DNA from: Patiria pectinifera
Lineage: Eukaryota > Echinodermata > Asteroidea > Valvatida > Asterinidae
DNA: 64,000 bases
Assembly (NCBI GenBank): GCA_029964075.1
Contig: CM057149.1
Location: 34,182,900 to 34,246,899, forward strand
Reading direction: 5' to 3'
Under the pieces are notes generated by a model, which was not told where the DNA came from, searched no databases, and was given only the letters and a program-made list of their open reading frames with translations. Each line of letters opens with the position of its first letter. Positions within the stretch are counted from its first letter, which is position 1. A program made the translations under genes and the position numbers. This document shows positions 5,645 to 58,899 of the stretch, in pieces.

Positions 5645-5803
5645 CTCAGTGGGACTGTGCTAACGTCTTCACGCGTGAGTACAATGGGACGGCCTCGCAG
5701 GCCTGCCCCAAGAACTCCTTCGGGGAGGCCAGTTGTTTCGACTGCATACCCTGGGCCAACATGACGGGCTGGAAGTACGGACCCAAGAACGGATCCGACA
5801 CAG
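5645..5803 (+). CDS. Exon 1 (as modelled): kringle-1, N-terminal half
   Basis: Follows a T-rich tract ending in ACAG and ends at CAG|GTCGGT; 159 nt, phase 1 at both ends. It reads AQWDC, then a YNGTAS segment and CIPW, matching the first half of a kringle (first Cys, the Y-x-G-T-x-S core, the Cys-x-x-W region). Two extra cysteines (in QACPK and ASCFDC) are not part of the usual six-Cys kringle. An in-frame ATG lies at 5608, upstream of the acceptor, but it falls in the polypyrimidine tract and would give only a 13-residue leader, so I treat it as intronic. An upstream signal-peptide exon is expected but not seen. Confidence 0.75.
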
Positions 5804-6335
5804 GTCGGTGGTTGGGAAATCAAATTGAAATGTCAACAAAAACTCTTAACACATCGTGTTCTGTAATTAGAAGTTCATATTACAGATAACTTACTGGCAG
5901 GCACGTTTTGAGGACGTATTATGTATATGCTCAATAGTAATAGTTTTGGTCCAAAAAAAAACAATAGGGAATAAATTTACATGAGAGAGATGCTATAGTA
6001 TGCGTCATTGTCTGAACATTATCAGAGAATTGTTCTAACAGGTTTAATCAAACATTATGTGAAGTTGTTTAATGTGGAGCCGTTTTAAAGAAACCCATGA
6101 ATAGCATTTAAATCCATTCACTTTTTAAGATTCAATTATTGAAAATAGTACATCAAGATAGATTAATATAATGCCCAAACTAAGATATTGAATTTATTCA
6201 AATCGGATTTGATGTTTCAATTCGCAACATATCTCTCAAACGTCTCGGTAGTGTGTTTTCATTGATACAAGTGAAAAGAACATTTCGATGGATGGTAAAC
6301 GATTGACGTATTTTTTTAAAATGATTATTTGACAG

Positions 6336-6449
6336 ATTTAATTGAGAACTATTGCCGCTTCGTGGGTGATAAGGTAGGACCGATGTGCTACATCCAGACG
6401 CCGGATGGAAGCACTGGTATAGAATTCTGTCAAACTCCTCCGTGTCATG
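6336..6449 (+). CDS. Exon 2: kringle-1, C-terminal half
   Basis: Acceptor TTTGACAG, donor CATG|GTAAGC; 114 nt, phase 1-1. It encodes IENYCRFVGDKVGPMCYIQ then FCQTPPCH, the conserved [15 protein letters not shown] second half of a kringle, here with GPMCY instead of GPWCY. An intron in the middle of the domain is the usual gene structure of kringle modules. The intron between the halves (5804-6335) is short and shows no repeat I recognise. Confidence 0.85.
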
Positions 6450-6564
6450 GTAAGCTAGCCAAAATAAGCTATCCTAATTTAAAAATGACATCACTTTTGA
6501 GACATAGTGACATCACACTTTCTTTACATAAAGGCTTGGGGCACTTTAATAAATAGCCTCATAT

Positions 6565-8545
6565 TCTGGAGGGGCGCCCAATTGGGTTTTAACTCCCCCT
6601 TGTGCCCCTCCCCAAACACCTGAGGAGGGAGGGGCACAGTGGGGGCAGACCTCGATCGGGGCGTTCCCCTTCCCCTAGCCCCCTCCTTAATGAAGTCACT
6701 GTAATAAAATGCTTGTAAAACACCAATGAGATAAATTTAATTTGAAAGTAATCCAAATAAAATCCAGGTGTAAATAAATTTAAAAAAAAAAAAGGTTTGA
6801 AAAGAAATCCCAACATTTTGACTCAGCGGTGAACAAAACAAATGTTTTTGATCCATCAAGGACAAAATGTATTAGAGCGCCTCATTTATTTCCCGTTTGT
6901 TCTAGATTATTTTTGATTAGTTAATTAATTAGAAACTCAAACACCTGGTGAGCAGCGTAATGAGATACAACTGGAACATTCATCTCCGAAATGAGGTCGT
7001 GAAAACCATACTGGTAAGTATCAACAGTCTAGGGTATCAAGTTACTGACCTGAGGCCTACAGGGTAGATCAGAATGATGGACCCAAATTAAAGAAAATAT
7101 TAAAAACATGTTGTAATTGCTGATGTGGCTGCATTTCAAAAAATGCAGCCACATCAGTACGCGATTTCAATAAATTTGTTGAGCCATGGAACCGAGGTCA
7201 GAGTGTTTTAGCGTGTGTTCTTTGCCAGCACTTTTCTTCAAAATGGTACAGTGGATAAACATATCGTTCACCAATGTCCAAAATACCAGCCTTTATTATA
7301 ATTCATTTGCATTTGTTTTGATAAATGCTGCATATTCTTAAATGTTCTCTAAGTTGGGTCCTGATCATTCTGACTCACCCTGTACACGGAAAGTTGGCAC
7401 CGATACCGACCATTATTTCGGTCAAGCATAACGGGTGGTGCACTTTATGTGTCAATCTCAGATATAAAGGCAAAACTGCGGCTGAATTGGGACATAGAGC
7501 CTATGTCATTATTGGTATCATGGTAAGTACTGGTAGACACCCACGCACTAGGGCTTAAATCGTTTCAATAGTTTATTTTTTACTAATTAAATACACTTTC
7601 CTTATTTTCCTATGGAAGCCTGGTAGCTTTCGTCTCCACCTTAAACAAAGCGTGACGTCATCACGTTTCAGGCCTAGCCTATTACTGTTGTGCCGCAAAG
7701 TAATGTCTTTTTTAACTAAACGTTGTCGATGTTGTTGTTTCGTTCGATGTCCCATTTAAAAGTGATTAACTTTTATAGTGCTATAAAAATAGCAATTAAA
7801 AAAACAAATCTATTTTTTTTTACGAGCTGAGACTCGAACATATAAGTTGCTGTATTTCATTAGTAAATAAAGTACGTTATCATACCAGTAATATCATTTA
7901 TGTCCCAATTTAGCCGCCATTCCATTTAAACATTCGCTCTCCATATCTGCCATTGGCTTATGTATCTGACATTGATACAACACAGAAGTACACCACCCAT
8001 TATGGTTGACCGAGATGATATAGTTTCGGTACGTCGAGGCTTAAACTGTCTGTGCATACCTCAGGCCATTAAAATGGAAACCCTAGACTGTTGTATTACA
8101 TACCAGTATTGTTTTACACGGCCTCATTTCGGAGATGATGAATGATCTCGTTGTTTTTAATTAGTCTGCTCATCGTGCGTTTCAGTTTCCAGAATCTAGA
8201 ATAAACGGAAAATGAAATAAGACGCTCTAGTGCACTTCGTCCTCGATGGATCAAAACACTGAATTGTTTTTGTTCACCAACTGAGTCAAACAAAAGTTCT
8301 TTTCAACAATTTTGTTCATTTAGGGCCTACACCTGGATTTTATTTTTGATTACTTTCAAATTATATTTATCTTCTTTGCGTTTACAAACATTATATTCCA
8401 GTAACGTCGTTAAGGAGGGAGCATGAGGAACGCCCCCGCTCGAGGACTGCCCCCCAATCCCTTGTGCCCCTCCTTCTCAGAAGGAGGGGCACAAGGGATT
8501 GGGAAGGCAAAAACGAGCTCTTGATCGGCAAACTCCCATGACATG
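6565..8545. mobile_element. About 2-kb foldback repeat in the kringle-1/kringle-2 intron
   Basis: The left arm (for example TTTGAAAGTAATCCAAATAA and AAATCCAGGTGTA near 6745-6775) recurs inverted on the right (TACACCTGGATTTTATTTTT near 8328). TACCCTTATGG-like central stretches around 7400-7540 and 7880-8030 also mirror each other. Both outer ends carry a GC-rich GGAGGGGCAC motif. A family C element interrupts the left arm. No open frame of note. Confidence 0.6.
7058..7384. mobile_element. TACAGGGT foldback element, family C
   Basis: TACAGGGTAGATCAGAATGA at the left mirrors GATCATTCTGACTCACCCTGTA at the right. A near-perfect central hairpin lies at 7121-7155 (stem TGATGTGGCTGCATTT). 327 bp, nested in the larger foldback repeat. 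Confidence 0.8.
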
Positions 8546-8561
8546 CAGTAGACTATTTATA

Positions 8562-8832
8562 TAGAACGCCATGGTCCAGTGGTTAAGGTGTTTGACTCAA
8601 TGTACCAAGGTGCTTGGGTTCGAACCGTAGACACTTCACTACAATTGCCTCTCTCCACCCAAGAGTATAAATGGGTACCTGTGAGGGTCGAACACCGATT
8701 GAGCGCTGATATCGGTGCCGCGTGGTCCCATGGCCTGATGAACAGGGTAATAATTATTGTAAAGCGCTTTGAGATCGTTGGTGCGATGGAAAGCGCTATA
8801 TAAGCACAATTATTTTTATTAATTATTGTTAT
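8562..8832 (+). mobile_element. tRNA-derived SINE
   Basis: The 5' part resembles a tRNA promoter (GTCCAGTGGTTAAGGTGTTT as A box, GGGTTCGAACC as B box). The 3' part carries AAGCGCTTTGAGATC and CTATATAAGCAC, ending in an ATT-rich tail. The same unit is found inverted at 41884-42189. Confidence 0.8.
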
Positions 8833-9252: not shown

Positions 9253-9387
9253 CGCACTCTGGATGCATGACGGGTAACGGGACTGACTATCGTGATCAGG
9301 CTATGTTCACGGAGAGTGGCTACAGCTGCCTATATTGGGATCAGGTACAAGACCAAGACGTGAACTCAACCTCGTACCCAGATGCAG
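9253..9387 (+). CDS. Exon 3: kringle-2, N-terminal half
   Basis: Acceptor CTCCCAG, donor GCAG|GTATAT; 135 nt, phase 1-1. Translation starts AHSGCMTGNGTDYRDQAMFT and continues with GYSCLYWD, matching the start of a kringle (C-x-x-GNG-x-x-Y then S-x-x-C-x-x-W). Unlike kringle-1 it has the standard cysteine count. The preceding 2.8-kb intron (6450-9252) is filled by a large foldback repeat and a tRNA-derived SINE. Confidence 0.85.
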
Positions 9388-9889
9388 GTATATCACAAAA
9401 GTGTAATTTTCCTATATTGAAAGCGACTGCTAAAAGGGAAACGCCTTAAGGTTTCTACTGAAGCAAAAACCACATCAAAGACTAGATAACGCTGGAATAA
9501 AAAGGTCCATGATGAATCTTCGTTGTTCTTCGTTGAAGTAAAATTCTTAACGAAGTGCCAGCATTGAACTGCACTGAAAACAAAGGTTCTTCAGTTCGTT
9601 GTCATCATTAAAAACAGAAAACATCGTTGATTTGGCCCTGGCAATATCTATGTTCAGAAGTAATTACTCTATAAATAATGTCTTATGTGGAATGTAGAAT
9701 ATTCAATTCTCTTTATATTTTTGATTTGAGAGTGATAATGTTACATGTCGAAATCAACCAGCCCGTTGCGTGAAGGCAAACCGGCAGTATTATCTCGCAT
9801 AATTATCAAAACATCAAGTCATTCCAATCATGGTTTTCACAATTTTTTCGTGCATTTTAAAGGTAGTATTGGTGGTATACACACCTATG

Positions 9890-9974
9890 TTCCGACACAT
9901 CTATGTTCCGACACACCTATGTTCCGACACACCTATTTTCCGACACACCTATGTTCGACACCCCTATGTTCCGC
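9890..9974. repeat. Tandem repeat, unit CACCTATGTTCCGACA
   Basis: About five imperfect copies of a 16-17-bp unit. A partial inverted copy (GGTGTCGGAAC) follows at about 9999. The open frames across it are by-products of the repeat. Confidence 0.8.
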
Positions 9975-10838
9975 CTAACGGGTTGTCGGGAAATAGGGGT
10001 GTCGGAACTTAGCAGTTACCATATAGAGCAATCCGGACACGCTGTCAATTCTATCACGAAGACCCTCTTCAACTGTTCTAGCTGTTGTTCAGAAAATCCG
10101 TTACGGAGCAGTTGCTTTGTATCGGTGCCTTTGTCATCCTCTCCAGACTTTGCCTTTTCACATCAGATGTTTTGTGATTTTCGCGCCAACGGATGAGTCA
10201 GTGGCCATTGTGTGACATAATAATGCATTTTGCCTTTGAAATGGTCAACGAAATAGAATGAAAAGACATGAAATATACCGCTAATTGAGACCCATAATAT
10301 ACAAACAGATGGGGCATTGATTCCAAGCTGGCGATCCTGCCTTCATGTTCGCAACTGTACCAGTAAATTGGTTGTTTCTGCATTACAATGTCATCGTACT
10401 TTGTAAAATAAAGCCTTAGGGTATATGGCTCGCTCAGCTATTCGGATAAGGTCATGGTCGAACATAAATAACAAACAGGGTGCCATGCCTGCAAAAATTT
10501 GTGTAACAAAGATGCATCTATCCCCTCCCGTTTTGTTTCTCACTCATCAATATCGTATGCTGGACGCATGTAGTTACCAATAAGTTATAAAACAACATCC
10601 GTAACACTTAATATCCGTAACAGTTGTTATTCAAACAGCTAAAGAATAAAACATGTCTCATTTTGGTTACAAATAAAATGCCATGGATATTATGATCGAT
10701 CCATTAATCCCAATGAGCTGAATAAAGGGCCTACAATGATTGAAAGTATGACTGACAAAGCGTGTAGAATTATGAACAAATAATGCATAAATAACACTAA
10801 CAAACCGATATTTACACTGCATGACATTCTACTACACG

Positions 10839-12081: not shown

Positions 12082-12189
12082 GTTTAGATGAGAACTACTG
12101 TCGCAACCCCGACAATAGCACTGGGCCATGGTGCTACTATCGAGACCAAGATATGCAAATTAGGAGAAATTTCTGCCCAATAGAAACAT
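12082..12189 (+). CDS. Exon 4: kringle-2, C-terminal half
   Basis: Acceptor TTTTTCAACAG, donor ACAT|GTGAGT; 108 nt, phase 1-1. It encodes [20 protein letters not shown] then FCPIET, a near-canonical kringle second half with the NYCRNPD and GPWCY motifs intact. The final kringle cysteine is split across the splice site: T here plus GC from the next exon makes TGC. This supports the join to the PAN exon. Confidence 0.9.
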
Positions 12190-14094: not shown

Positions 14095-14379
14095 GCGAAT
14101 CCGACGCCCTGTCGCAGTTCCAGCGCCACTACAAAATCTACATCCCGGCCAACAACAACAGATACCACCGGGGCTGGTGGTGGGACATGACGGCGGAGGA
14201 CTGCGCCCGTTTCTGCCTGGAGGAGCGGACTTTCGTCTGCCGGTCCTTCGAGTATCGCGAGGAGTATTACTTCGACGATCGGAGGTGTATTTTGACGGAT
14301 CAGAGCCTACACACGCTGGATATCTATCGGACCACCTCGAGCGGGATTTCCATAGATCTCTTCACTCGGATCAATAAAA
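14095..14379 (+). CDS. Exon 5: PAN/apple domain
   Basis: Acceptor ATCGCCAG, donor AAAA|GTAAGT; 285 nt, phase 1-1, the whole domain in one exon. The pattern DMTAEDCARFCLEE, VCRSFEYRE and RRCILTDQS is the PAN/apple signature (Cys-x3-Cys, Cys-x-SF-x-Y, Cys-x-L). PAN domains mediate protein or carbohydrate contacts in plasminogen and HGF, where they also sit beside kringles. The exon is clearly more GC-rich than the flanking intron. An overlapping +1 reading frame is open but has no domain and is a shadow. Confidence 0.88.
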
Positions 14380-15139
14380 GTAAGTATAATTTGCATAATG
14401 CTGTTTTGAGAGATGATTTTTGAGCGCAAAAAAATGGGCGGAAAAACAGTTTTCGTCTTGTGCAACTGTGAACTGAATTGGGTTTTTTCTTCAACATCTC
14501 CAACATTTTATAGTTTCTGGGGAAAAAAACATCTCCCTGGTAACGTTTTGATGACCGGAAAATAGCTATGAATCTTTTTATTTGCCCTTTTTCCGGAATT
14601 GGGCCTTAAATTTAAAAACTAAAAAAAACTTCCAAGAGACATTTTTTTTTTAGTGGCAACATTTTTTATCGGTTCATTTTTCTCAACTTATTACCTTACT
14701 TTAGACCAATGAGAGGACGGAATCATAACCACGCCTACTTTTGGGTATTGTTTGGCTACGGCTTTGGATTTTACTACTGTGGGCTATTGTGAATAGTCGT
14801 AGCCGTAATGTTAAGGCTTTTCAGAAATTAGAAGTATGGTACCTTGACGTGCTGATATGACCGGACAACAAAGGATGCGCAACAGTAGCCTGGCTAATTT
14901 AAACTTGTATACAATTCACACGTGCACGCTATATGACATGCATCGACGTTCTTGACATCGACAGCAGACCTGCCGGTGGGAATTTTTGACTGTGAGTTTT
15001 CCAGTTGCTAATTACTTGGAAAAAAACATGGATTGGATGGGCCTATATTAAGCCTAATTGGTTTCTAACATGATGTGAGGTTAATCTCCTGTCATTTGGA
15101 GGTAGAATCGCTTCAGTGGCAGTGCTATACTAGTACTAG

Positions 15140-15755
15140 TGTCACGCCCCAACTATCGCATCGGTCCCAACTATAGTTGGGCCTGTCCCAACTATAGTTG
15201 GGCCTGTACCTTGTATAGTGTACATTGTTGTACGATTATAAAACATTCCCTACAACTCTAATACACATCTGACTTTACTGGGGACCAATGAAATGATCTA
15301 TGGGTGGGGACCATCTGTAGTTGGGCCACCGCAATATTTTTATTTGGCAGTCCCAACTATAGTTTACATTGATGTACGACTATAAAACATTCTCTACAGC
15401 TCTGCTTACATGTCCGACTTGGGACCTTTGACATTAGCTATGGGTGGGGCCCATCTATAGTTGGCCGGCCATGGCAATCTTTGAATTTTGCAAAATGTTG
15501 CTGGATAATAAAACCCAGCAGCTGGACAACTCATCCAACTAGGCAGTACACGTGACCGGCCAGCCTTGCGGCATGCATGCACGACGAATGACACGGTGCC
15601 AGCGCCGCGGAACATTTAATCCAACAAGATCTATCAAGCATGAAGCATCCGGCGCAACTCCAGTCCTAACTATAGTTGGGCCGACCCAACTGTCGCACTA
15701 TAGTTGGGACAGTCCCAACTATAGTTGGGACCGATGCGATAGTTGGGGCGTGACA
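15140..15755. mobile_element. TGTCACGCCCCAAC element with repeated CCCAACTATAGTTGGG
   Basis: TIRs begin TGTCACGCCCCAACTATCGC and extend at least 42 bp. The self-complementary 16-mer CCCAACTATAGTTGGG occurs several times in both arms. CTAGTACTAG flanks both sides (15130-15139, 15756-15765), possibly a 10-bp target duplication or palindromic TIR extension. 616 bp. Confidence 0.8.
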
Positions 15756-15902
15756 CTAGTACTAGTGCTGACAATGGCTGAGCAGCAGCTGAGTAGATGA
15801 GGGTATGTTGGTGCTACTTATAGCCCCTAGCCCAGGTTGGACGAAGTCTTCATTGCAATACGACTAACGTAGGGAGGAAAGGGAGTCCACCTGGGCTATT
15901 AT

Positions 15903-16367
15903 AGCCCCATAAATGTGGCCTATTTACTGGACTGCCTCCGTAAACGTAGGCCACACATCCACATGTACAAAAACGTGTCGCACTTTGCCAAATTTTGATT
16001 TTCACATTTAGGCTTAGTTTGTAGGATTTTTTTGCTTTAGAAGCATACTCACCCTCTGTAGAGGCTAATCAGAAAGTGCTGCCTTTTTCAGATGTCAAAT
16101 TTTTGTGAAATTTCATGTTGAAATTTTGATACGCAAACATGTAAAAATGAATCTGGAAATTTCACGGAAAATATACATCTGAAAAAGGCAGCACTTTCTG
16201 ATTAGCCTATAAAGAGGGTGAGTATGTTTCTAAAGCAAAAAACCCCTACAAACTAAGCCTAAATGTGAAAATCAAAATTTGGCAAAGTGCGGCACGTTTT
16301 TGTACATGTGGATGTGTGGCCTATGTTTACGGAGGCAGTCCAGTAAATAGGCCACATTTATGGGGCT
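15903..16367. mobile_element. AGCCCCATAAATGTGGCC foldback element
   Basis: The arms mirror each other for over 200 bp (AGCCCCATAAATGTGGCC, AAAGGCAGCACTTTCTGATT, AAGTGCGGCACGTTTTTGTA). 465 bp. Confidence 0.85.
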
Positions 16368-16445
16368 AACTTACTTAGTACTAGCATGACTATAGCAACA
16401 TACACTCATCTACATGTACATATGTACTAGTCCTATTGCTAGCCC

Positions 16446-16757
16446 GATTTACTGAGTGGACTGAAGTAATACCTCCGTATAAAGGCCACACTTGGAACAT
16501 GTAAGCCTTCCTGAATATGTGTCAAGTTTTTATTTTCACATTGTAGTTTATTTATTTTACACGAAATGTAGAGGGTTGAAAGGGGGGAATAATTTTCCAT
16601 CGCTTTAAAGAGGGTGAGTGTGCTTCTAAAGCATTAATAAACCCCAAACAAAGTCTAAGTGTAAAAATGAAAACTTGAAAAAGTTCTACATATTTAGGTA
16701 CATGTTCCAAGTGTGGCCTTTATTTACAGAGGTAGTCCAGTAAATTGGCCGCATTTA
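16446..16757. mobile_element. Diverged relative of the preceding foldback element
   Basis: GTAAAAGGCCACACTT-like and CAAGTGTGGCCTTTATT arms share words with 15903-16367 (AAAGAGGGTGAGT, TCTAAAGCA). Ends are worn. Confidence 0.6.
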
Positions 16758-16979
16758 TAGTGGATATTCGTCTTGGACTTGTCTGCATACAATACTGTGT
16801 ACAATGCAATCACGTGAGAAGTGTTTTGTTAGGGAACTTAGGCCTAATTAGTGAATCTCAGAATCTCAGAAAGTTAACTGTATATCGCCACTAGGTATCA
16901 TCATCCAGTTTGCCTTCACGCAAGAAATTAAGGTTGTGATGCAAGATGTTTTCCTAGGGCTGTCTTAAATTGGTATGAT

Positions 16980-17633
16980 GTAGCTCTACTGAGTGGAGCG
17001 TTGAACTACGGTACCCTCCGTGCAAACGCTCCACCGATTTGGCATACTTTGTTGACAGCTACACGGTCGTCATGACGATGCATAATTCATCACGCGTGTG
17101 TGTGACGTCACTATTGAAGAAAAACAAGTCGCGCTTAATCAATGACTGTTTCATGTACTGATATGTGTCCTGCGCCAAAAACCCACACTGTCAGACGGCG
17201 CGGGGCACATATGACTACATGAAACAGTCGTTGAGTAAACGCAACTTGTTTTTCTTCAATAGTGACGTCACACACGCGCGTGATGAATTATGCATCAGTC
17301 ATGTCAGTGAAATGGACTGTACAACTCCGCAGACACATTTAATTGTGAGCGGCAAGTTCAGACTATTTTGTTCTTTTTTCAAAATTACCGGTTGTCTGGA
17401 ACAATTTAAGGGGCCTTATGGAATGTCATGAATGTGTGGATCTATCCAGGGTTACTGTCTTTCTCATTTGTATTCTCTTTATCAGTTTTTTGGGGGCCTT
17501 TTGTCCTCGCGAGGGCATGCACAAAATGCATACCGTCATGACGACCGTGTACCTGTCACCAAAGTATGCCAAATCGGTGGAGCGTTTGTACGGAGGGTAC
17601 CGTAGTTCAACGCTCCACTCAGTAGAGCTACAT
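16980..17633. mobile_element. TGTAGCTCTACTGAGTGGAG foldback element
   Basis: A long TIR (TGTAGCTCTACTGAGTGGAG continuing to about 80 bp) mirrors 17555-17633. A second inverted block (ATTCATCACGCG, TAGTGACGTCACACAC, AAACAGTC) lies nearer the centre. 654 bp, no support for coding. Confidence 0.82.
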
Positions 17634-18113
17634 GTAGGTATGATGTTGTTTGATGGATAGGCCTACATGTACATGTAAGTTCATAAATACTAATGGAAAT
17701 CTAGGCAGGTGCACTTGTGATAAATGAGATAAACATGCCAGTGAGTGATCGATCGAATGGGATATGTTTCCATATATAATTCAATAACAAAACCAGTCAT
17801 TCCAGTTCAACTTCAGTATTCTAAATATACGCTTGCGCATTTCAACATTTCAAGTTCAACTTTTAAGATTGGAGGTCCTGCATAGAATCCACAGCTTGAA
17901 TCCTGTTGTAATTTCTACATGTACTACAAACAAGACTATAGTCCATTCAAACTGACCCTAGGTACTTAATATTGCTTTTTTTTATTTTGACATGATTTTG
18001 CGATTAGTAGGCCAGACGGTCCCCCCAAAAAGGCGCCACCATAAGTAGGGTTACTCTGATATGTACATGTATAGCTCTAAAGTCCGCCACGTACATGATA
18101 ATAAGGGAATAAA

Positions 18114-18222
18114 TGTGTGCTTGGCCGGTTTTAAACAAGTCCATTTAAGACTGGCAGGGGAAATGGACGTTGACATTATTGACAACCAGTCCCCATAATA
18201 CTGGCCAAGCACACTTCCCCTT
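18114..18222. repeat. Imperfect hairpin GTGTGCTTGGCCGGT
   Basis: GTGTGCTTGGCCGGT near 18115 pairs with ACTGGCCAAGCACAC near 18200, with further interrupted pairing inside. About 109 bp. Confidence 0.5.
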
Positions 18223-19346
18223 CATAAGTACATGTACCTTTATGGTAAACATGGTGAAAGGGGCAAAACAAGTCAAAAAATTATTTCCAACAATTTTACT
18301 TCATGTTTTTTTTAAACACCCCTCTAACTGTGTATAGTATATGTGCCTCTCGGGAGAAGTCGTAAACAAAACATATGGAGATTGGCGCATACTGCTCATG
18401 TAGGGCGTACTGCGCGATGTGGCGCATGTTTTATAAACCGTTTAAAACCACTCACATGATGGGCTCTATGAATAGCAGGTAACAACGAACTTGAAGTTGA
18501 TGGATGGTTTTCCGGCTTTAAACAGGAAAGTGTGCAGATGGAAGTTGTTATCTTTTTACAGGAAGGAAAAATTGGGGAATTCAGATTCATTTGTGTTTAT
18601 GCAGAAGTAGAAATTGCTTTATCTCGGTGTGCATATGCGCGCAGTTGGAATACCAGACTTGCCTTTTGCTACAAATGTAGCACCTTAAATGTGTCTCAAA
18701 TACTGGACTTCCTCCATATTTTGAAGCCTGAATAACTTGGACCCTACTTATCGCTGATAGTATCGCCAGACCATATCCAAATGTTAGTAGGGTTACTCAA
18801 AAACATGTATGTCATGTGTAGCCAATATACGATCTTTCTACCCCAAGAATTTGAGTAACACACTGCTGTACCGTAGTTGCATTAAGGACGTTGTTTGAGA
18901 CAAAAATGTGCACTTGTTTCAGAGCTTCAATATTTGAAGTTGAACAGAGTGCATGCCCGTTCGTGATTCAGTCGTGTGACAACTGATACCATGAACATGA
19001 CACGTGTGAAGTGCTCAACACATAGATGTCATATGGCAAAAATCCCTGCCACTTATGTGTACGTGACGTGAAGGGGCAACAAAGTAATGTACAATCTTCC
19101 TGTGCGGCCTGAGGAATGAATTTCAAAATGTGTCAAGACCTTTAGGCCTACTCATGGCACACTGTCATTGCAATAAGAGCAAAAGTGCACTCACTTATAC
19201 TTGCCCCATTGCACAGGACGCGTGCGGGACTCGTAATGCTTACACTTGACAAGACGGAGACACAACTTGAGTATTATGGATCTGTTGCCCCCTTGAAATA
19301 TTTGTGCGTCTTCAGTTGGAAAGTACTCGCAAGAGTTGGTGAAGAT

Positions 19347-19410
19347 TGGGAAGTGACAATTGGAACGTGACAATTGGAGCGTGACAATTGGAACCTGACA
19401 ATTCGACACA
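19347..19410. repeat. Short tandem repeat, unit GTGACAATTGGAAC
   Basis: Four copies of an approximately 15-bp unit (GTGACAATTGGAACG, with substitutions). Confidence 0.75.
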
Positions 19411-21176
19411 CTGAGGCAGTTACTGCTGGAAAGGTGACAGGTAGACAAATTAATGGGCTATATGCACGTACAGAAGATGAAATTAAGGTCAGATACATGT
19501 CCGACTTTCATGGACAAATCTCATCTTTGTTCACACAACGTTTGTACTGTAAATGCATCTGACTGCATGAGACAGCTCAAAATTGATTGTGCAGAGTCAC
19601 TTAGTCTGAGCAAGTTTGTGTGAATCACCGCCTTAACGTGAACTATAATGTACTAGTCTCAAACGTTTGACTTAGTTTGATCATGGTTTGATGTATTGTC
19701 TAAGGCTAATGATTGCTGCTTTATTGTATACGAAGCCCACCAGCCTACGTACATGTAGCCTTCAAACCCAAAACCCTAGCCAAAGTTTGTAAACGTAGCT
19801 CAATGGCACATGTGTACGTTGCTTCTATCATTCCATGAAGGGATATCTTGGAACCGGTCTTGAATTGGATCTGCATGCAGGGTTGCAGTAGTCTAGTCAG
19901 TGGGGAAAATTATCTGAGCGTCAACCCAGATTGTCAAATTTGATTACTGCCCGTGTTACCTTCAAAGGCAAGGGACCGTAAGTGTAATGCCTACACTGCA
20001 AAGTCTAAGAACTACAAGTATGCACTTTTATAATAATATTGTTGTAATATTGAGTCAGTCACATCACCTAAAGGCAGTCACTCAAAATCATGCAGTCTAG
20101 AGTCACTGAAATTGATTGTGACAAAGACTTTCACTTTGTCAGTGGTCTTTTCCTATTACTTGTGGCCTGGCTTGTCATTGGACTTGTTATTTACTTGTAA
20201 TCCATTGCAGCACTGACTCTCCTCAGTCCTTAGCGCTGGCCGTCTTAATTTGCCATGGGCCGTTGATTTGCCATGGGCCGTATCTCTCAAACCAGGCTTC
20301 TATGCTCAAAACATTAGCTCTATGTTGAGCCTTATTAGCGCCAATCTTGTTTGTGGAATTGTGCTTTAAGGACGTACCGCAGGAAGCATCAATGAGTAGT
20401 CTGCAGCCAAAGTCTATAGAATTTTGAAAAAATGAGACGTCGGATTTGTTAATAATGCCTAAATTAGCTTAAATACAATCCATCTCTGTCAGACATTTAA
20501 TAATGTGTTCATGCAGTATTGCCGTTTATACGTGCTCTATAAACCATCCATGTTCAAACAGCACTGCAATTTTAATATGTCACAGTATGACTCAGGCTAA
20601 TCACCATGTCAATATAGTCTCCTTACACTTGACAGTTCAAAAGCATAATGAACTTCATCACTGAAACGTATTACATACATGCATAGTGCCTTGATTACCC
20701 CTTGAAATGATCATCTATCAAACATGGCACTGACTGAATTGACTTGAACATGAGGCTTATGACTTTAAATAATGTGGTTGGCTCCAAATGTAATGGATTC
20801 TCTGTAAGAGTTCTCCAAGCAACAAGTGCGTGCTGTCTATTAATTTATGTTGTACTTTTTGGTCTCCAACTGATGTGACACCACATCATTGGAAATGTAT
20901 GTAAACTGCTTGAATTCTTCATCATTATCGATTTCAAATGCCAACATATAACCATGATACCAAATACTTCAACTGAAAGAAAATCAATTATTTCCAGATG
21001 TTTTGGAATACTGTCATTTGTAACATTCTATAGAGTTTGAACTGGATGTTTCAATCGTGGTTGTGCCCTGGGTTTTTCTGAAAAAAATACTGGGACTGAG
21101 TTCAAAGAAAATATACTTTTATACAGACTGACAAATTTCTATTTTTTCCCATTTTCCTTGACTTTTTCACCCATAG

Positions 21177-21209
21177 TTTGCGATGCCTACCAAGCTAATG
21201 CCATTCCAG
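21177..21209 (+). CDS. Exon 6: 33-nt micro-exon between PAN and discoidin-1
   Basis: CACCCATAG acceptor and CCAG|GTGAGT donor enclose 33 nt that stay in phase 1-1. Joined to its neighbours it reads ICDAYQANAIPDECPL, a smooth lead into the first discoidin domain, whose opening cysteine follows. Its isolation in a 9.6-kb interval and its short length lower certainty, but phase and both splice sites fit. Skipping it would also keep frame, so it could be alternatively spliced. Confidence 0.55.
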
Positions 21210-22694
21210 GTGAGTAGATCTCGACATATAATTTATTTAGAACTGTTGCGTACACTCCAATCCAAAAGTCATTTTTGATGTAGGGCTTTGAAAAAAGCAG
21301 AACATTTCAAGTTATATTACACATTGCCTAACAGTTACACAGATCATATTTGTTGCCAGCAAACTGGCCGTCATATGAATTCCCTGGGGGAACTTAACAA
21401 CTGCGCGCCCACACACACAGTACGTGAGTGCGAAGCGACAAGGAAATGTTAGAAATAGGCCTTTTTTTAAAAGACGATCGTGACAGATCAATCACTTATG
21501 CTAAATATTTTTGTTCGTTCTCCCTCAGACAGTTTGATTTGTACATTATTTTATCATATAAATTTGATGTTTTTTAAATTAAATTTGTCCCCGGCATTTA
21601 GTGAAAATTTAAAAGAAAAGCGTTTTCCCTGTATGTACTCCCGCGTACTACGCATAGAATGTGCCTGGAAATATCTTGCAATCATACTGCGTATTCTCTC
21701 CTAACTCGGCAGCCGCTGTGTCAAAACATTCCGTTCGCGCGGTGATACACATTACCAATTCTTGCCTATCACTGTTCCAAAATACATTGCGATTGGTCAA
21801 TGTTAACCACTGGCATTTGGACAATAACTATTTCTTGTCTAATCAAAACTTCTCTTTAAAACGTACAACTGCCTATATTGATCACACATGTTTGTGGCCG
21901 TGTGTGGAGGGCGCCCGCGCCCTGTGAGCATGCATTGGAAAGTACTTAAAGTTTCTGTGTGCATGTTTTTTATATGGGAAATTTAGTCATACAATTTTGT
22001 GCAGGTTAAATTCAGATGGATGGGGTACTTGTGCCTGAAGCCCATATCATTACGTTTATGAAAACCTCTGTTCTATCCATTTCACTGAAATATGTTGTAA
22101 CACAAAGCACCCAACGACTTCATGCTAATTTTGATGCATTGGGCCGCAGGCATGCTCACATTTGCGTTTTCTGAGGTCACATTTTGATACTGTTACTCGC
22201 AAGTAATTAAAAGTCAACTCTCGTGTCCACAGGCATTGATTATGCTTTCAACAGGAGTTGTCCAGGTGGCATTTGTTTCCCCAAGCAGCCAATTTTTGGT
22301 TGTCACTGTGCTGTTGATATTCTCTTGAGTCTGTCATTCACTGGGGAATAGTTAAAACACTGTCAGGGGCCACAGGCTTTTTTTTAATTAAAATTTTCCC
22401 TATCTCTGCTAAAAAGCAACACCTCTACTAGCCTTATGTGTTGGGTTCTGAGAGATACTGGGTAGTTGGTTTTTAGCCAGAGTTGTTGCCATTAGGTCGG
22501 CCATTTTTAGAGGGTATTAATCTTTTCCCAGGCTTGGGAATTAGCAAAATTAGGACTTGGGATGAGTGAGTTGGCCCACAGATGTTCTCCCAACTGTATT
22601 CATCGATTGCCTGGAGATCATTTCTTTCTGTAGTTTCTACTGTTCTATACTGCGTCCATGGGAGTTTAAACTGTCCGGAAAGCCCTAGAAAATA

Positions 22695-23068: not shown

Positions 23069-23070
23069 CA

Positions 23071-41730: not shown

Positions 41731-41856
41731 ATATGGATGAGTGTATGTCAGTGGATCACGGCTGCTCCCATGAGTGTGTCAATGTGCCCGGCTCTTACTA
41801 CTGCATATGTCCACAAGGCTTTCGTCTCAACGAAACAGACCTGAAAACATGCTCAG
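41731..41856 (+). CDS. Exon 15: calcium-binding EGF-like domain
   Basis: Acceptor GTTGCACAG, donor CTCAG|GTAGGT; 126 nt (42 codons), phase 1-1, a single symmetric exon. It starts DMDEC, then CSHECVNVPGSYYCICPQGF, with six cysteines in EGF spacing, the D-x-D-E-C calcium-ligand start and the C-x-N-x-P-G-S-Y-x-C core. It is probably a rigid calcium-dependent spacer between CTLD-1 and CTLD-2. Confidence 0.95.
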
Positions 41857-43018: not shown

Positions 43019-43185
43019 ATATTTGTGAATCGCTAGTCCACGATCTATTCCCGATTCATTTTGAGGGAGAGGGCAGCAGTTGCTACAGCACGGTTTCCCT
43101 GGATGCTAACTGGACGGAGGCAGCTGCAACATGCAATGAAGCCAACAGCCATCTCCCACATGTTGAAGACGGCGTCTTCCTTTGG
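43019..43185 (+). CDS. Exon 16: C-type lectin-like domain 2, first part
   Basis: Acceptor TCCATTAG, donor TTTGG|GTGAGG; 167 nt, phase 1 in, phase 0 out. It encodes ICESLVHDLFPIHFEGEGSS then CYSTVSLDANWTEAAATCNE and ANSHLPHVED. This is a CTLD first half (SCY, W-x-x-A-x-x-x-C-x-x-x-x-x-x-L). One base of ambiguity exists at the donor; this choice keeps frame with exon 17. Confidence 0.8.
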
Positions 43186-45267: not shown

Positions 45268-45424
45268 TTAGATGCAGCACTGAACGAGTCTCTGTCGTGG
45301 GCGCTAGCTGAGGTGAATGGGTCTGTCATGGACAGCCAATGCTTGGCTGTACGTACTGATAACGATAGTACCGCGGTTGAAGACATCCCATGCTCAGATG
45401 AACTACCCTTCATCTGTCAAAGAG
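45268..45424 (+). CDS. Exon 17: C-type lectin-like domain 2, second part
   Basis: Acceptor TTCTCAG, donor AGAG|GTATGC; 157 nt, phase 0 in, phase 1 out. It reads LSWALAEVNGSVMDSQCLAV then EDIPCSDELPFICQR, the CTLD end (C-x-x-x, D-x-x-C, PFIC). The joined domain is only about 108 residues and lacks the WIGL and W-x-DG-x-P loop, so it is a short or degenerate CTLD, or a small exon in the 43186-45267 intron was missed. Confidence 0.78.
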
Positions 45425-46716: not shown

Positions 46717-46879
46717 AGTATGAGGATGTGAAATGCAACGCACTCTGGGCATCTGACACCAGCGTAGTAAAGACCACACAACCAGAGGGCTACATTCAGT
46801 CCCTCAGCTACGCCCCTTGGTATGATGCTGGCTCAACGTGTACGATAGACATCAATGGACCAGAGGTTTACAGAGTCAG
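46717..46879 (+). CDS. Exon 18: CUB domain 1, first part
   Basis: Acceptor CACCTTACAG, donor GTCAG|GTATAG; 163 nt, phase 1 in, phase 2 out. It encodes VKCNALWASDTSVVKTTQPE then GYIQSLSYAPWYDAGSTCTI and DINGPEVY, the CUB opening (G-x-I-x-S-P-x-Y-P-x-Y-x-x-x-x-x-C-x-W-x-I). The frame stays open beyond the donor, but that stretch is intronic. Confidence 0.85.
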
Positions 46880-48084: not shown

Positions 48085-49374
48085 TACAGGGTGTATCAAA
48101 AAAAAGTATACACTTAGAGAAATGTATCAAAAAAGGATGTTTTATAATTTTTCAAAAATCTGTCACTAAATATTGATGGACCAAGGTCTCACGCTTTAAT
48201 TGCCACCATGTCAATCTTCAGCTGTTCCGCATGAGTGAACACTAGCTATTTACTTTCACCAGATTTGAATTGGCTTGCGCACAAAAGTGAAATGGTTAAA
48301 ACATAATCAAACACCGTGGTAGGGAGCATGTGCTTTGTTGCTCACAAATTTTCAAGAAAATTGGATTAACCCTTAGTCCTCCACAGGCCCACCTAGTTTG
48401 GACTCAAGTTGCGCCTTCCTCAAAACATTAACAACAGCATGACCTTACAAGTCAATGATTAGGCCTAATGGTAATCGTCATGAGGGAATGCAACGTTTGC
48501 ACTTCATGCATGCACGATTCAGTCTTCGACGTGGCCACCATTTCTTTGCACACAGACTTCTGCCCTCCCCTCATGTCAATGATTTTCGTCATTATCGTCC
48601 TGGCAGAAGAAATGGACAATTTAGGCGTGCCTGGTGGGAGCAAGATGGGGACACACCACACAAGAGGAGGATCGTGCATGAACCTATCACTGAATTGTTG
48701 TTGGCGGCTTCTTCGCATTAAACCGGCCCGTCCCCCAAGATGGCCCCCGGCGATCTTACCCCATACTGGACTGTTTCTTGTGAGGCCATGTTAAGTCTAA
48801 AGTGTAGCCCACTCCACCAAGAGACCTGGATGACCTGCAAGAACGTGTTACTGCGGTTGCTGTTGTAAGGCAGGATGATTATGCACAGTTTATGACATGC
48901 TGCGGAGGGCAGAAGTCTGTGTGCAAAGAAATGGTTGCCACGTCGAATGAATCGTGCATGCATGAAGTGCAAACGTTGCATTCCCTCATGACATTAGGCC
49001 TAATCATTGACTTGTAAGGTCATGCTGTTGTTAATGTTTGAGGAAGGCGCAACTTGAGTCCAAACTTGGTGGGCCTGTGGAGGACTAAGGGTTAATCCAA
49101 TTTTCTTGAAAATTTGGCAGCACATGCCTAAACTTCCCTACCACGGTGTTTGATTATGTTTTAACCATTTCACTTTTGTGCGCAAGCCAATTCAAATCTG
49201 GTGAAAGTAAATAGCTAGTGTTCACTCATGCGGAACAGCTGAAGATTGACACGGTGGCAATTGAGGCGTAAGACCTTGGTCCATCAATATTTAGTGACAG
49301 ATTTTTGAAAAATTATAAAACATCTTTTTTTGATACATTTCTCTAAGTGTATACTTTTTTTGATACACCCTGTA
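48085..49374. mobile_element. Long-TIR element with decayed IS630/mariner-like transposase
   Basis: TACAGGGTGTATCAAAAAAA and its complement bound a 1,290-bp unit. Arms of about 430 bp match closely (AAATGTATCAAAAAAGGATG; TTGGATTAACCCTTAGTCC; CATGAGGGAATGCAACGTTT). The unique centre holds transposase remains (see the pseudogene entry). It interrupts the intron inside CUB-1. TA flanks and the TIR type agree with Tc1/mariner-IS630 relatives. Confidence 0.88.
48590..48885 (+). pseudogene. Transposase fragment, DDE superfamily (IS630/mariner-like)
   Basis: Across frames on the plus strand one reads AWWEQDGDTPHKRRIVH, RWPP, DLTP, LDCFL-stop-GHVKSKV-stop and PTPPRDLDDLQERVTAV. These match in order the catalytic QDGAPPH region, the PRSPDLTPLDFFLWG block and the K-V-Y...L-L-x-R-I tail of mariner-type transposases. 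A frameshift and in-frame stops show it is dead. Assignment is from motif memory, not alignment. Confidence 0.75.
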
Positions 49375-49509: not shown

Positions 49510-49763
49510 GTTTATCATTTCCAGGATGAGCCTCAGAAAAGTGACGCCGGCCAACAGTCAGATCTCTCGATGCGTTGACTCCCTGGAGATCACTGATGAC
49601 ATCCCCGGCTATGGTCTCTTCACTAGAGGGCGGTATTGTGGCAGTCTTAGGGACGTGGAGGTCGTGACGCGGTCCAGCGACGTCCGTGTGGTGTTCACCA
49701 TCGGCCCGCTCAGCGCCAACATGCCTCGGGAGCTGGGCTTTGTCGCCAGCTATAAACTCATCA
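49510..49763 (+). CDS. Exon 19: CUB domain 1, second part
   Basis: Acceptor TTTTTTCAG, donor ATCA|GTAGGT; 254 nt, phase 2 in, phase 1 out. It encodes FIISRMSLRKVTPANSQISR, then CVDSLEITDD, YCGSLRDVEVVTRSSDVRVV and GFVASYKL. This is the CUB second half (C-x-D-x-L-x-I, Y-C-G, V-x-S-x-S-x-x-x-V-x-F, GF-x-A-x-Y). It is the only one of the three CUBs with an internal intron, and that intron carries a 1.29-kb long-TIR element. Confidence 0.9.
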
Positions 49764-50907: not shown

Positions 50908-51315
50908 ATTGCAGTGAGGAGGACTGCACCACAGACTGCGGCACCAACGCCACGCTCCTGACAAAGCCCAGCGGTATCCTGGCCACCAAGGGCTTCCCGG
51001 CCCGCCTCCCACCCTTCAGTACCTGCATCTGGCACATCAAGCTACCCAAAGAACACTACATTCGCTTGCAGTTTCCTGACTTCCGCGTGGTGCGGGACTC
51101 GGGGACCGGCGACTGCGTGGATGCGGTGATCGTGACGGGAGCAGATGGGATCAGCCAAAGCAGGATCAAGCGTGCCGGCAGGGACATGCTGACGGGGAGG
51201 CTGTGTGGCACTCCCCCGCCGCAGATAATCTCTGAGTCGGAGGAGCTGTATATCTTCTACCTGACCGGACTGGATGTTCTCTCGGAAGGATTCAGGGCCA
51301 CGTACACGTCTACTG
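50908..51315 (+). CDS. Exon 20: CUB domain 2
   Basis: Acceptor GATTCTCAG, donor TACTG|GTGAGC; 408 nt, phase 1-1, one whole domain. Landmarks are CTTDCGTNATLLTKPSGILA, STCIWHIKLPKEHYIRLQFP, DCVDAVIVTGAD, RLCGTPPP and GFRATYTS. A longer than usual linker of cysteines (CSEEDCTTDC) precedes the domain. CUBs mediate calcium-dependent protein contacts in complement, developmental proteases and receptors. Confidence 0.92.
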
Positions 51316-51834: not shown

Positions 51835-52257
51835 CTTTACCAGGGTGTGGCGTGGGGCTCCACTCAGCCTCCAGTCACCTGGAGTGCCAGGCTCCCGAGG
51901 CTGTCCTGACGTCCCTCTACCATCCACTGCCCTACCCGGCCCACTCCTACTTCAGCTGGCGTATCACTACACCCACGGCCACCTACATCCAGCTGACGTT
52001 CAGCGCGTTCGACGTCCCTTCCGAAACCCCCTGCGACGGGGATCTTGTGATCATCTTTGACGGGGATGAAGAATTGGATGAGCCATTGGGGGAGTTCTGC
52101 AACTCCAGGCGGCCTCCAGGCGAGGTTCTGTCCAGCATGAACCAGATGATTATTGAGTTTGAGACGCAAGAAGAGAGCGGGGGGACAGGGTTCAGTGCTG
52201 TCTACCGTGCCCTTCGCTTCCAGCCAAAGGTGTCTTTAAAAAGTCCTTACGATGAAG
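51835..52257 (+). CDS. Exon 21: CUB domain 3
   Basis: Acceptor TCTCTTCAG, donor GAAG|GTAAGT; 423 nt, phase 1-1. It encodes LPGCGVGLHSASSHLECQAP, YFSWRITTPTATYIQLTFSA, CDGDLVIIFDGDEELDEPLG, EFCNSRRPPG and FSAVYRAL, a complete CUB plus a basic tail (about 14 residues) leading to CTLD-3. The cytosine-rich overlapping frames are shadows. Confidence 0.92.
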
Positions 52258-53000: not shown

Positions 53001-53004
53001 TTTA

Positions 53005-53218: not shown

Positions 53219-53428
53219 ATTACAGCTGTGAGAGTGGCTGGGTTGAATACTACGGCAACTGCTACCACTTCCATCAGGAGAATGCCACGCTGAAATGGAA
53301 AGATGCTGAGAGGCAGTGTGCCATAGAGGGCGCCCTACTGACCAGCATCAGGGACTACGGCGAGATGAACTTCCTACATCTCATGCTGACGTCGGATTGG
53401 TTCACCGAGGAGACAACAACTTATATAG
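53219..53428 (+). CDS. Exon 22: C-type lectin domain 3, first part
   Basis: Acceptor GGTATCAG, donor TATAG|GTGAGG; 210 nt, phase 1-1. It reads CESGWVEYYGNCYHFHQENA then LKWKDAERQCAIEGALLTSI and RDYGEMNFL, a textbook long-form CTLD start (C-x-x-GW-x-x-x-x-x-x-CY-x-F, W-x-x-A-x-x-x-C-x-x-x-x-A-x-L-x-S-I). The extra N-terminal disulphide makes it a long-form CTLD. Confidence 0.95.
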
Positions 53429-54092: not shown

Positions 54093-54174
54093 GTTTAACT
54101 GATATTCAAGAGGAGGGGCATTTCCGATGGCTCGATGGGCGGCCTCTCAGTTACTCCGACTGGATGGTTAACAG
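54093..54174 (+). CDS. Exon 23: C-type lectin domain 3, middle part
   Basis: Acceptor TCTCTCACAG, donor AACAG|GTGGGT; 82 nt, phase 1 in, phase 2 out. It encodes GLTDIQEEGHFRWLDGRPLS then YSDWMVN, i.e. IGL-x-D ... G-x-x-RW-x-DG-x-P-x-x-Y-x-x-W of the CTLD. The exon is small, but its splice sites and phases fit both neighbours exactly. Confidence 0.92.
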
Positions 54175-55088: not shown

Positions 55089-55240
55089 CGATGGTTACAC
55101 CCAGCCAGATGGGGATGTTCTTGAAGACTGCTCCATGATCATGATGCACAGCCTTCACTCCACACAGAACTGGGAGGACATCCCTTGCTCCTTGAGAGCA
55201 GCTAGGCAGTTCATCTGCAAGAAACCGGCCCGCAAACCAG
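55089..55240 (+). CDS. Exon 24: C-type lectin domain 3, last part
   Basis: Acceptor GACCACAG, donor CCAG|GTCAGC; 152 nt, phase 2 in, phase 1 out. It reads SDGYTQPDGDVLEDCSMIMM, then TQNWEDIPCSLRAARQFICK. The QPD tripeptide sits where EPN/QPD determines sugar class, and WED stands for WND. By family knowledge QPD favours galactose-type ligands. Of the four lectin-like domains only this one has such a site. Confidence 0.92.
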
Positions 55241-56092: not shown

Positions 56093-56464
56093 AATGTGAT
56101 AGTGGTTGGTCGCTCGCCGGCGCCCTGTGCGCCCGCCTCCTCTTGGCAACAGACGCCCTCCCCGTTTCCCCTGACGACTCCGGCGAATGCCTCACTGACG
56201 TCCGAGTCACACCTGATCTCCTGGTCTCCATCCTGTACCTGGTCAGGCACGTCTGGACCAACTCCTCGCTGCAGCAGGAGGGGTTCCGCATCGGCGTGGG
56301 GCGGACGGATGCGACGGGACAGATGTGGGACAGTAGGGGTGATCCTGAGATGGAGTACGGGGGATGCACGAGGGTCAGTTACTCTGATGGCCGGTGGCAG
56401 CAGGAGCAGCACGTGCCCTGTGATAGTCCGGTGTCTGCCGTGGTGTGTTACCAGCAGACTAGAG
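56093..56464 (+). CDS. Exon 26: divergent CTLD-like domain
   Basis: Acceptor ATACTTGCAG, donor AGAG|GTAATG; 372 nt (124 codons), phase 1-1, very GC-rich. It reads ECDSGWSLAGALCARLLLAT, then GFRIGVGRTDATGQMWDSRG and CTRVSYSDGRWQQEQHVPCD, ending SAVVCYQQ. The F-x-IGV ... G-x-x-W ... C ... W-x-x-x-x-C ... VVCY succession resembles a CTLD, but the first half has drifted and no sugar-binding tripeptide is seen. An unrelated small disulphide domain cannot be excluded. Long open frames on the other strand here are GC-rich shadows. Confidence 0.75.
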
Positions 56465-56882: not shown

Positions 56883-56952
56883 GACTGGATAGCTCAGTTG
56901 GTAGAGCACTGGAACGGCAATCCGGAGATTGCAGGTTCAAGCCCTGTTCTTT
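56883..56952 (+). repeat. tRNA-like SINE head
   Basis: Reads GGATAGCTCAGTTGGTAGAG, then a five-pair anticodon-like arm and GCAGGTTCAAGCCCTGT as a T arm. The two acceptor strands do not pair and no CCA-proximal stem forms, so it is a tRNA-derived repeat, not a gene. Confidence 0.65.
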
Positions 56953-57273: not shown

Positions 57274-57399
57274 ATGTGACTCAGCAGTGCGGCGACTCAA
57301 TGTTCTACTGCGATACCGGGGAGTGCATACAGCAAGTATACGTGTGTGATGGCGTGGTGGACTGCGCTGACACGAGTGACGAGGCAATCTGCGTACAAG
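57274..57399 (+). CDS. Exon 27: LDL-receptor class A domain
   Basis: Acceptor CACCCACAG, donor ACAAG|GTATGA; 126 nt, phase 1-1. It encodes QQCGDSMFYCDTGECIQQVY then VCDGVVDCADTSDEAIC: six cysteines and the D-C-x-D-x-S-D-E calcium cage of LDLa modules. This is the last exon I can assign with confidence. Confidence 0.95.
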
Positions 57400-57519
57400 G
57401 TATGACATGTCAAGTAAAAAAAGTAAAGTCTGTCCCGAGCCAATGTGGCTCATCAGGCCGGCGTTTATCTCCGGTTTCAGTAGCATGAAACGACTGAGAA
57501 TATTTCTACTACTCCCCCT

Positions 57520-57712
57520 GGATGGGATGCTAGTCCATCGCAGGTTACTCCCCAGCTAATGCCGGTACCCATTTGTACTCCTGGGTGGAGAGGGGCAAGT
57601 GGGGGGAAGTGCCTTGCCCAAGGACACAATATATGACCAGCGGCTGGATTCGAACCCCGGACCCTCTGATCATGAGTCACGAACCCTAACCACTAGGCCA
57701 CACACTTCCATG
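57520..57712 (-). mobile_element. tRNA-derived SINE fragment (reverse orientation)
   Basis: TACCCATTTGTACTCCTGGG, GTGCCTTGCCCAAGGACAC, then GATTCGAACCCCGGACCC and ACCACTAGGCCACAC, an inverted B and A box. It follows exon 27 by about 120 bp. Confidence 0.7.
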
Positions 57713-57784
57713 ACATGTCAAGTATTCAACATCAAAATTGCAATTTTTAAAATTGGGTTCCCCCGCTTCATTGATGCTGATTTA

Positions 57785-58258
57785 ATATTCATAAGATGTA
57801 ATTTACGTCGGGTGATATAAATTCAACATTGGGTTTTGCCCTTCACCTACGTATTATATAAACACTGTATGCTCAGTGTTGTCCCCAGTGATTGTGAGAA
57901 AAAAATTTGCAAACTACTTGGGTGGGACTCGAACCCACGACCTCCTGCTTAGTAGTGCAGACGTCTTACCACTGGACCATCGAGCTTGCTGGGGTCAACT
58001 GGCGTCAACTGGCTGGTTGGAATCTGATCCACCAGCGGGTACCGCAACCAAACTATTCATAAGATGGAATTTGAGTCGGGGTGATGTATCAATTCATGAT
58101 TGGGTTTTGCCCTTCACCAAGGTATTTTATAAACACTGTATATTCAGTGTTGTCCTGAGAGATTGTGAGGAAAACTTCACAAACTGCGTACTCGGGTGAG
58201 ACTCGAACCCATGACCTCCTACTTACTAGTGTAGACGTCTTAACCACTCACCCAGTGA
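57785..58258 (-). mobile_element. Tandem pair of tRNA-derived repeat units
   Basis: Two adjacent units share GGGTTTTGCCCTTCACC, AAACACTGTAT, CAGTGTTGTCC and an inverted tRNA-like head (GACTCGAACCCACGACCTCC at 57928; GACTCGAACCCATGACCTCC at 58200). A third head-like copy lies at 53010-53070 with GATCCCATGACCTGC. They are likely SINE copies rather than functional tRNA genes. Confidence 0.65.
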
Positions 58259-58881
58259 TATAGCAGTAGGTATCGCAATGAATTCCATCTGATGTTTCAT
58301 TTTGTCCAAACAGTCATTGAGCAAGCTGATGATTTTTTCTGGCAAGGTCTTGATTAGTACTGAGATAAAATGGTAAACCCAACGTTAAAACAGCATGTTC
58401 TGGACGCAATAATTCTATAAAATATTCCCTAGAATTTCAGTTGTCGCGTTCAGAACTCTCCAACTTTTAATTCTAGGAAACAATTTTTGAATATATATTT
58501 TATCAAAATTTGAGTGAATTTACCCGGAATCCCCCACTGTACCTAAATTTGAAGTATTTTGATCCATTGAGGACTGCAAGAAAGCCACTCATATTATGAT
58601 TGGGGTTGTTGACGTCTCTATTCTATATTATTGCAAGAAACATTTGGATTACTTGCAATGTTGGATTCAGGTAGTTCAGTCGGTTCTCTTGTACAGATAC
58701 TTGGGGAGTTAGTATTAAAAACATCTTTTCTTTTATAGATATAGTCATGGTTTGTAACATTGAAATATTACCCCCCAGAATATATTCCTAATTAACTTCC
58801 ATGTTTTTCTGTGCTACATTTGTAGATTTCAGTAACCCTTGAAAATAAGAGACTAATCTGAATTTAAATTTCTTCATACAG

Positions 58882-58899
58882 CAAGAACTCTTGGACCGA
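58882..58899 (+). CDS. Exon 28 (candidate): 18-nt micro-exon
   Basis: TTCATACAG precedes and GTGAGT follows an 18-nt stretch that would continue phase 1-1 and add ARTLGP after the LDLa domain. It fits by phase and splice consensus only; chance matches of this size are common, so it is a weak candidate. No further exon is seen before the end of the window. Confidence 0.3.

Follow-up and report, generated by a model that had tools for sequence, protein, structure and literature searches.

A putative type C leucine-rich repeat receptor gene with a greatly extended mosaic ectodomain in the sea star Patiria pectinifera

Type C leucine-rich repeat-containing G-protein-coupled receptors (LGRs) combine LDLa modules, leucine-rich repeats (LRRs) and a seven-transmembrane domain (7TM), and count as type C1 or C2 according to how many LDLa modules they carry (PMC4561518). 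RXFP1 and RXFP2 bind their ligand at the LRRs; signalling depends on the LDLa module, which may be a tethered activator (PMC4561518). Type C2 receptors of the GRL101 kind have been described from Lymnaea and as ambulacrarian orthologues (PMC8286064, PMC11863921) and are also mentioned in PMC4079206, PMC11521371 and PMC7217437. IGF has been proposed as the ligand of GRL101 (PMC8286064), and a GRL101-like transcript with six LDLa modules is enriched in the sensory tentacles of the crown-of-thorns starfish (PMC6267866). In this work we have analyzed a 64,000-nucleotide stretch of the 613.5-Mb genome of the sea star Patiria pectinifera (G000:C21:34182900-34246899; hereafter the window) with 60 kb of upstream and 100 kb of downstream flank, 224 kb in all. 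The gene that it carries is, in our judgement, probably a type C LGR of the multi-LDLa, C2/GRL101-like sort with a greatly extended recognition ectodomain, of which the window holds the N-terminal two thirds.

Coordinates are window positions; negative numbers and numbers above 64000 belong to the extended window. The exon chain was assembled from exon-like frames of the + strand, with splice sites scored together with a codon usage trained on recognised exons. The in-window part of the best phase-consistent chain comprises 25 exons at 5645-57399 (+), about 1,768 residues by summed exon lengths. An earlier reading of the window from its letters alone (the sequence-only reading) had proposed one phase-consistent product of about 1,800 residues ending at 58899; the chain of exons stood, but the predicted product is much longer. 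The last coding exon found inside the window ends at 57399, and an end of the gene at 58899 was rejected, the chain running beyond the window to 77861. The downstream flank continues on the same strand and in the same phase with six LDLa-type exons and an LRR N-cap, after which come five LRR exons, each exactly 72 bp long, and a complete 7TM domain on a single exon with its stop codon at 77859-77861. The full chain has 38 phase-consistent exons terminating in this stop codon; with a candidate signal-peptide exon the model amounts to 39 exons, 2,565 amino acids and about 82 kb. The order of modules is signal peptide (candidate), two kringles, PAN, three discoidin (F5/8C) domains, C-type lectin domain (CTLD), EGF, CTLD, three CUBs, CTLD, a CTLD-like segment, seven LDLa (one degenerate), LRR and 7TM.

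The downstream part points to the class of the receptor. An LRR ectodomain stands immediately before a rhodopsin-type 7TM, as in LGRs (7tm_1 8.5e-32 across positions 1-260 of 260, with LRR_8 at 3.1e-27 adjoining), and LDLa modules lie N-terminal to the LRRs, as in type C. Among the solved structures of the PDB the LRR-7TM part matched RXFP1 (7tmw) at 3e-83, LGR4 at 9.6e-50, LHCGR at 2.9e-47 and TSHR at 1.4e-45. Within that set it is nearer to RXFP1 than to the type A and B LGRs, and the matches show the LRR-7TM part of the predicted protein to be kin to RXFP1. There is more than one LDLa module (seven LDLa-type exons; Ldl_recept_a 5.3e-45 on the spliced model, in six stretches), and because of this number the predicted receptor falls into C2, with GRL101, under the grouping of PMC4561518. 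That the placement is made by LDLa count and not by a tree weighs against it.

The Patiria gene and the GRL101-type receptors of Lymnaea and ambulacrarians likewise have multiple LDLa modules, LRRs and a rhodopsin-type 7TM, in like order (PMC8286064, PMC11863921). The described ambulacrarian ectodomains are drawn as LDLa plus LRR (PMC8286064), whereas the Patiria gene, if it gives one transcript, does not have an ectodomain of these two alone and adds kringle, PAN, discoidin, CTLD, EGF and CUB on the N-terminal side. LRR-7TM homology and an LDLa module are shared with RXFP1 and RXFP2 (type C1), which have one LDLa module and 10 LRRs (PMC4561518) as against seven LDLa-type and five LRR exons here, where a giant distal ectodomain is also present.

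Because the chain ends in LDLa-LRR-7TM past the window edge, the product would be a receptor that signals and not just an adhesion protein. The sequence-only reading, which had thought of a recognition or adhesion receptor, was thus right in spirit as to recognition, but the LRR-7TM nearest to RXFP1 points to a GPCR of LGR type C. Its likening of the gene to HGF/plasminogen, neuropilin and polycystin-type or scavenger ectodomains does not hold as kinship: no trypsin, REJ, PLAT, GPS or MAM domain is listed by Pfam in the spliced model, which ends in LDLa-LRR-7TM. In the same scan the polycystin transmembrane (TM) region is not listed either, and polycystin-1 was rejected as kin on this and on the missing REJ, GPS and PLAT, as was HGF/plasminogen on the missing trypsin domain and the order kringle then PAN. 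Neuropilins have the order CUB-CUB-F5/8-F5/8-MAM and one TM segment; kinship with them was rejected on the missing MAM, the different order and the 7TM. An identity as Adhesion GPCR was rejected too, since GAIN/GPS and 7tm_2 are not listed by Pfam and 7tm_1 is present instead.

All domain classes of the sequence-only reading (kringle, PAN, discoidin, CTLD, EGF, CUB and LDLa) were recovered by Pfam on the + strand in the order that it gave (Table 1); the scan of the spliced model was made in two pieces. Kringle matched the spliced model at 2.4e-24 in two stretches, kringle 1 alone reaching 31.4 bits, under the curated cut-off of 34.3. PAN_1 scored 6.2e-8 on the exon frame and 4.3e-8 on the single domain and was not listed in the scan of the long spliced protein, where, as we guess, HMMER filters passed over it. 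F5_F8_type_C matched at 3.3e-58 in three stretches, each of the three domains being split by a phase-0 intron at nearly the same site, and CUB matched the second piece at 9.7e-32 in two stretches. CTLD1, CTLD2 and CTLD3 pass Lectin_C (2.1e-7 and 6.9e-15 on the spliced model), and a fourth CTLD-like segment is seen by eye only. A middle exon was looked for in CTLD2 and not found. CTLD3 aligns across nearly its full length with the DC-SIGN, mincle and LY75 chains and carries QPD...EDC...WED, which we take to be close to the galactose-type calcium/sugar motif. The fourth segment (56093-56464) found no support from Pfam, PDB sequences or hhalign, and its predicted fold is not confident (mean predicted local distance difference test score 43.4); it is not supported as a proven lectin domain.

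We infer from strand, order and splice phase that the kringle/PAN/discoidin and the 7TM parts would belong to a single transcript. Every one of the 21 introns that separate two modules in the chain is in phase 1, and all six LRR introns are in phase 2. When splice sites around the exon cores were chosen freely, 76 of 76 boundaries (75 splice boundaries and the terminal stop) were those of the chain and 37 of 37 junctions were phase-compatible; cores and frames had been taken from the chain, so that the test speaks to the boundaries only. Three exon starts are uncertain: unconstrained scans favoured 14118 for PAN, 23863 for discoidin 1 and 26534 for discoidin 2, where the chain has 14095, 23962 and 26484, in the same frame each time.

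Cohesion is stronger in the CTLD-CUB-LDLa-LRR-7TM half. The model is weakest at the 9.6 kb separating PAN from discoidin 1 (14380-23961), a gap that could hide a gene boundary and is the first of several points that weigh against a single gene. The alternative of two adjacent genes, a secreted kringle-kringle-PAN protein (perhaps with discoidin) followed by a type C LGR starting at discoidin, CTLD or CUB, is unlikely in our estimate. The PAN frame reaches a stop 41 bases beyond the donor, so that the PAN exon could be a terminal one; its donor, though, is GTAAGT, and the best other exon candidates of the gap (top five), discoidin 1 aside, score no more than 4.0. All modules lie on one strand and in phase 1 throughout; phase, however, cannot exclude two genes, because phase-1 modules fit across genes as well, and kringle with PAN at one other locus (C8) and discoidin with kringle at another (C13) speak for modules that travel in other genes. 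Odd domain architectures are, besides, frequently gene-prediction errors (PMC3927609). The + strand of the 224-kb region has four signal-peptide-like exons with a phase-1 donor, two far upstream, one at -4451..-4376 and one at 48573-48633, and none of the four lies in the gap, which speaks against two genes. The last of them, a weak signal-peptide-like ATG exon (donor 3.1) within the CUB1 intron, could in principle begin a shorter product at CUB2.

We regard it as very improbable that the window carries simply an adhesion, scavenger or matrix protein ending near 58899, with the LDLa-LRR-7TM receptor as a separate gene downstream. Every in-window domain is an adhesion or recognition module and a 7.1-kb intron follows the first LDLa exon, but that exon opens a same-phase LDLa series which continues into LRR-7TM in the known order of type C LGRs, and no obvious terminal exon was seen in 57400-64000 (frames judged by eye, with no TM or glycosylphosphatidylinositol-anchor predictor run). 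A fixed window can make a receptor look like an adhesion protein. That the assembly joined exons of separate loci is scarcely credible, for all the Penelope-like and tRNA-like repeats within the introns, as the window lies in a single 40-Mb contig with zero N and phase and order are continuous across 38 exons.

The candidate signal-peptide exon of the gene, at -4451..-4376, has a phase-1 donor and lies outside the window, about 10 kb upstream of kringle 1. It is the one signal-peptide-like exon with such a donor in 35.6 kb upstream, against none in a 35.6-kb control. Joined to kringle 1 it reads ...LLSLAIVGEAQWDC and gives a single open frame of 2,565 residues; at the join ...AIVGEA is followed by QWDC, and the cleavage point is a guess. 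Other candidates that score above 11 number only three in the + strand exon listing of the 60 kb upstream; one of the three contains the signal exon, and none is recognisable as a module.

Table 1 Features of the predicted receptor gene, in window coordinates (numbers above 64000: extended window)
Feature	Position	Strand	Evidence or remark
Kringle 1	exons 5645-5803, 6336-6449	+	Pfam Kringle in spliced model
Kringle 2	exons 9253-9387, 12082-12189	+	Pfam Kringle above cut-off
PAN	14095-14379, single exon (start 14095 or 14118)	+	PAN_1
Discoidin (F5/8C) 1	exons 23962-24299 (start possibly 23863), 25695-25839	+	F5_F8_type_C
Discoidin 2	exons 26484-26818, 31317-31464	+	F5_F8_type_C
Discoidin 3	exons 32850-33196, 36784-36931	+	F5_F8_type_C
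C-type lectin domain 1	exons 38108-38300, 40576-40787	+	Lectin_C 3.1e-5, above cut-off
Calcium-binding EGF	41731-41856, single exon	+	EGF_CA 5.7e-9
C-type lectin domain 2	exons 43019-43185, 45268-45424	+	Lectin_C 1.5e-6, above cut-off; short/degenerate
CUB 1	exons 46717-46879, 49510-49763	+	CUB 4.4e-6 (first piece, 1 stretch)
CUB 2	50908-51315, single exon	+	CUB 5e-14
CUB 3	51835-52257, single exon	+	CUB 4.6e-18
C-type lectin domain 3	exons 53219-53428, 54093-54174, 55089-55240	+	Lectin_C 6.9e-15
CTLD-like segment 4	56093-56464, single exon	+	cysteine pattern by eye only
LDLa 1	57274-57399	+	Ldl_recept_a 2.6e-11; final in-window coding exon found
Intron exiting window	57400-64000	+	7.1-kb gap to next LDLa exon
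Further LDLa-type exons	64490-64627, 65446-65562, 66012-66125, 68030-68146, 69040-69159	+	outside window
LDLa-type exon, degenerate	66440-66592	+	no Pfam match
LRR N-cap	69365-69473	+	outside window
LRR exons	71564-71635, 72945-73016, 74100-74171, 75179-75250, 75852-75923	+	outside window
7TM exon with stop	76775-77861	+	outside window; 7tm_1

Membranes or glycans are common ligands of discoidin domains, as proteins are of CUBs. Because of these habits, the lectin motif of CTLD3 and the EGF_CA fit, we favour for the ectodomain a role in capturing a cue that is surface-borne or multivalent. The cue, whether protein, glycan or membrane, would be caught by the distal modules, and the membrane-proximal LDLa-LRR part would then activate the 7TM bundle. 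The LDLa-LRR signalling unit known from RXFP1 and RXFP2 would thus keep its place next to the membrane, with a long arm for capture added to it. Surface orientation, type of ligand and G-protein signalling we infer. As a tentative proposal, possible though short of probable, the protein may be a pattern-recognition GPCR, in which a capture arm of the clotting/complement type on a transducer of the relaxin-receptor type would couple microbial or self surfaces to G-protein signalling. The receptor may instead serve hormone reception, with IGF as in the GRL101 proposal, or chemoreception.

The GRL101-like receptors of the Biomphalaria SudRes2 region are in part similar, with an N-terminal C-type lectin domain before LDL, LRR and 7TM, and to this extent speak for the present reading, but unlike the present gene they are described with C-type lectin, LDL and LRR only (PMC12297450). 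Their gene cluster belongs to a region that is associated with resistance to schistosomes; the variants validated there, and the top ones, however, sit in a neighbouring Zn-RING-IAP gene and not in a GRL101 gene (PMC12297450), which weakens the immune reading. Adhesion GPCRs of amphioxus have taken up at their N-termini the same module classes as here, namely kringle, CUB, LDLa, lectin and discoidin (PMC2246102); those receptors belong to the Adhesion family, whereas the present gene has 7tm_1 with LRR and no GPS listed by Pfam.

LGRs carrying a lectin and GPCRs carrying kringles are thus both known already, but the two together were not met in the literature searched. No GRL101 receptor with kringle, PAN, discoidin and CUB was found there, nor any paper in which kringle, CUB, leucine-rich repeat, LDLa, rhodopsin and C-type lectin occur together (subscription journals and protein databases lay outside the search). 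The opinion of the sequence-only reading that no named protein has this architecture agrees with this result. If the single-gene model is right, a member of the relaxin-receptor family carries an unusually elaborate GPCR ectodomain, and it may be asked whether multi-LDLa LGRs serve hormones, as in the IGF proposal (PMC8286064), or surfaces and microbes, a reading suggested by PMC12297450. Should pattern recognition hold here, then, taken with the Biomphalaria cluster, type C2 LGRs would be an invertebrate platform for innate recognition and not hormone receptors only.

A kringle search of the genome gave 16 matches, 14 of them above the cut-off; eight were given as loci, the present gene included, and the gene model was run against these eight with tblastn. 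At L008 (C20, ~9740577-9741619, minus strand) a kringle exon pair has the same split as kringle 2, with 57% and 46% identity, and may possibly be part of a paralogous receptor. At L004 (C8) a PAN match (34%) lies downstream of kringles, and at L001 (C13) a discoidin end (29%) lies upstream of a kringle (45%). Because of these three matches we conclude that kringle, PAN and discoidin modules are re-used elsewhere in the genome. Two further kringle loci, viewed with 1.5 kb on either side, have other modules upstream of the kringle exon: the motif HEIGHAVGFWHEQ, presumably that of an astacin-like zinc protease, at L003 (C12:10590378-10590620), and immediately upstream at L005 (C15:11233384-11233617) a C-type-lectin-like exon with an EPN motif, seen by eye.

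The discoidin 2 intron holds two opposed Penelope-like elements, one at 27549-29615 (-) with a 689-amino-acid open frame (RVT_1 and GIY-YIG) and one at 29326-30582 (+) in two frames (RVT_1 0.0052, under the cut-off; GIY-YIG 2.7e-6). Intronic tRNA-like Rfam matches at 56888-56949 (+, 42.8 bits) and 57914-57986 (-, 32.5 bits), not called by ARAGORN, are probably tRNA-derived short interspersed elements. A minisatellite-like tract at 34657-35224 has translations repeating a SNHKSVTSQITSQ-like unit, and similar repeats with translated units like CSDTPMFRHTYVPT occur at 9867-10009 and ~124005-124576 (extended), perhaps representing an interspersed satellite-like repeat. Past the 7TM exon, about 67 kb downstream, at 144472-144682 (extended; L017:472-682), lies a cysteine-rich exon with a WAP match of 2.1e-4.

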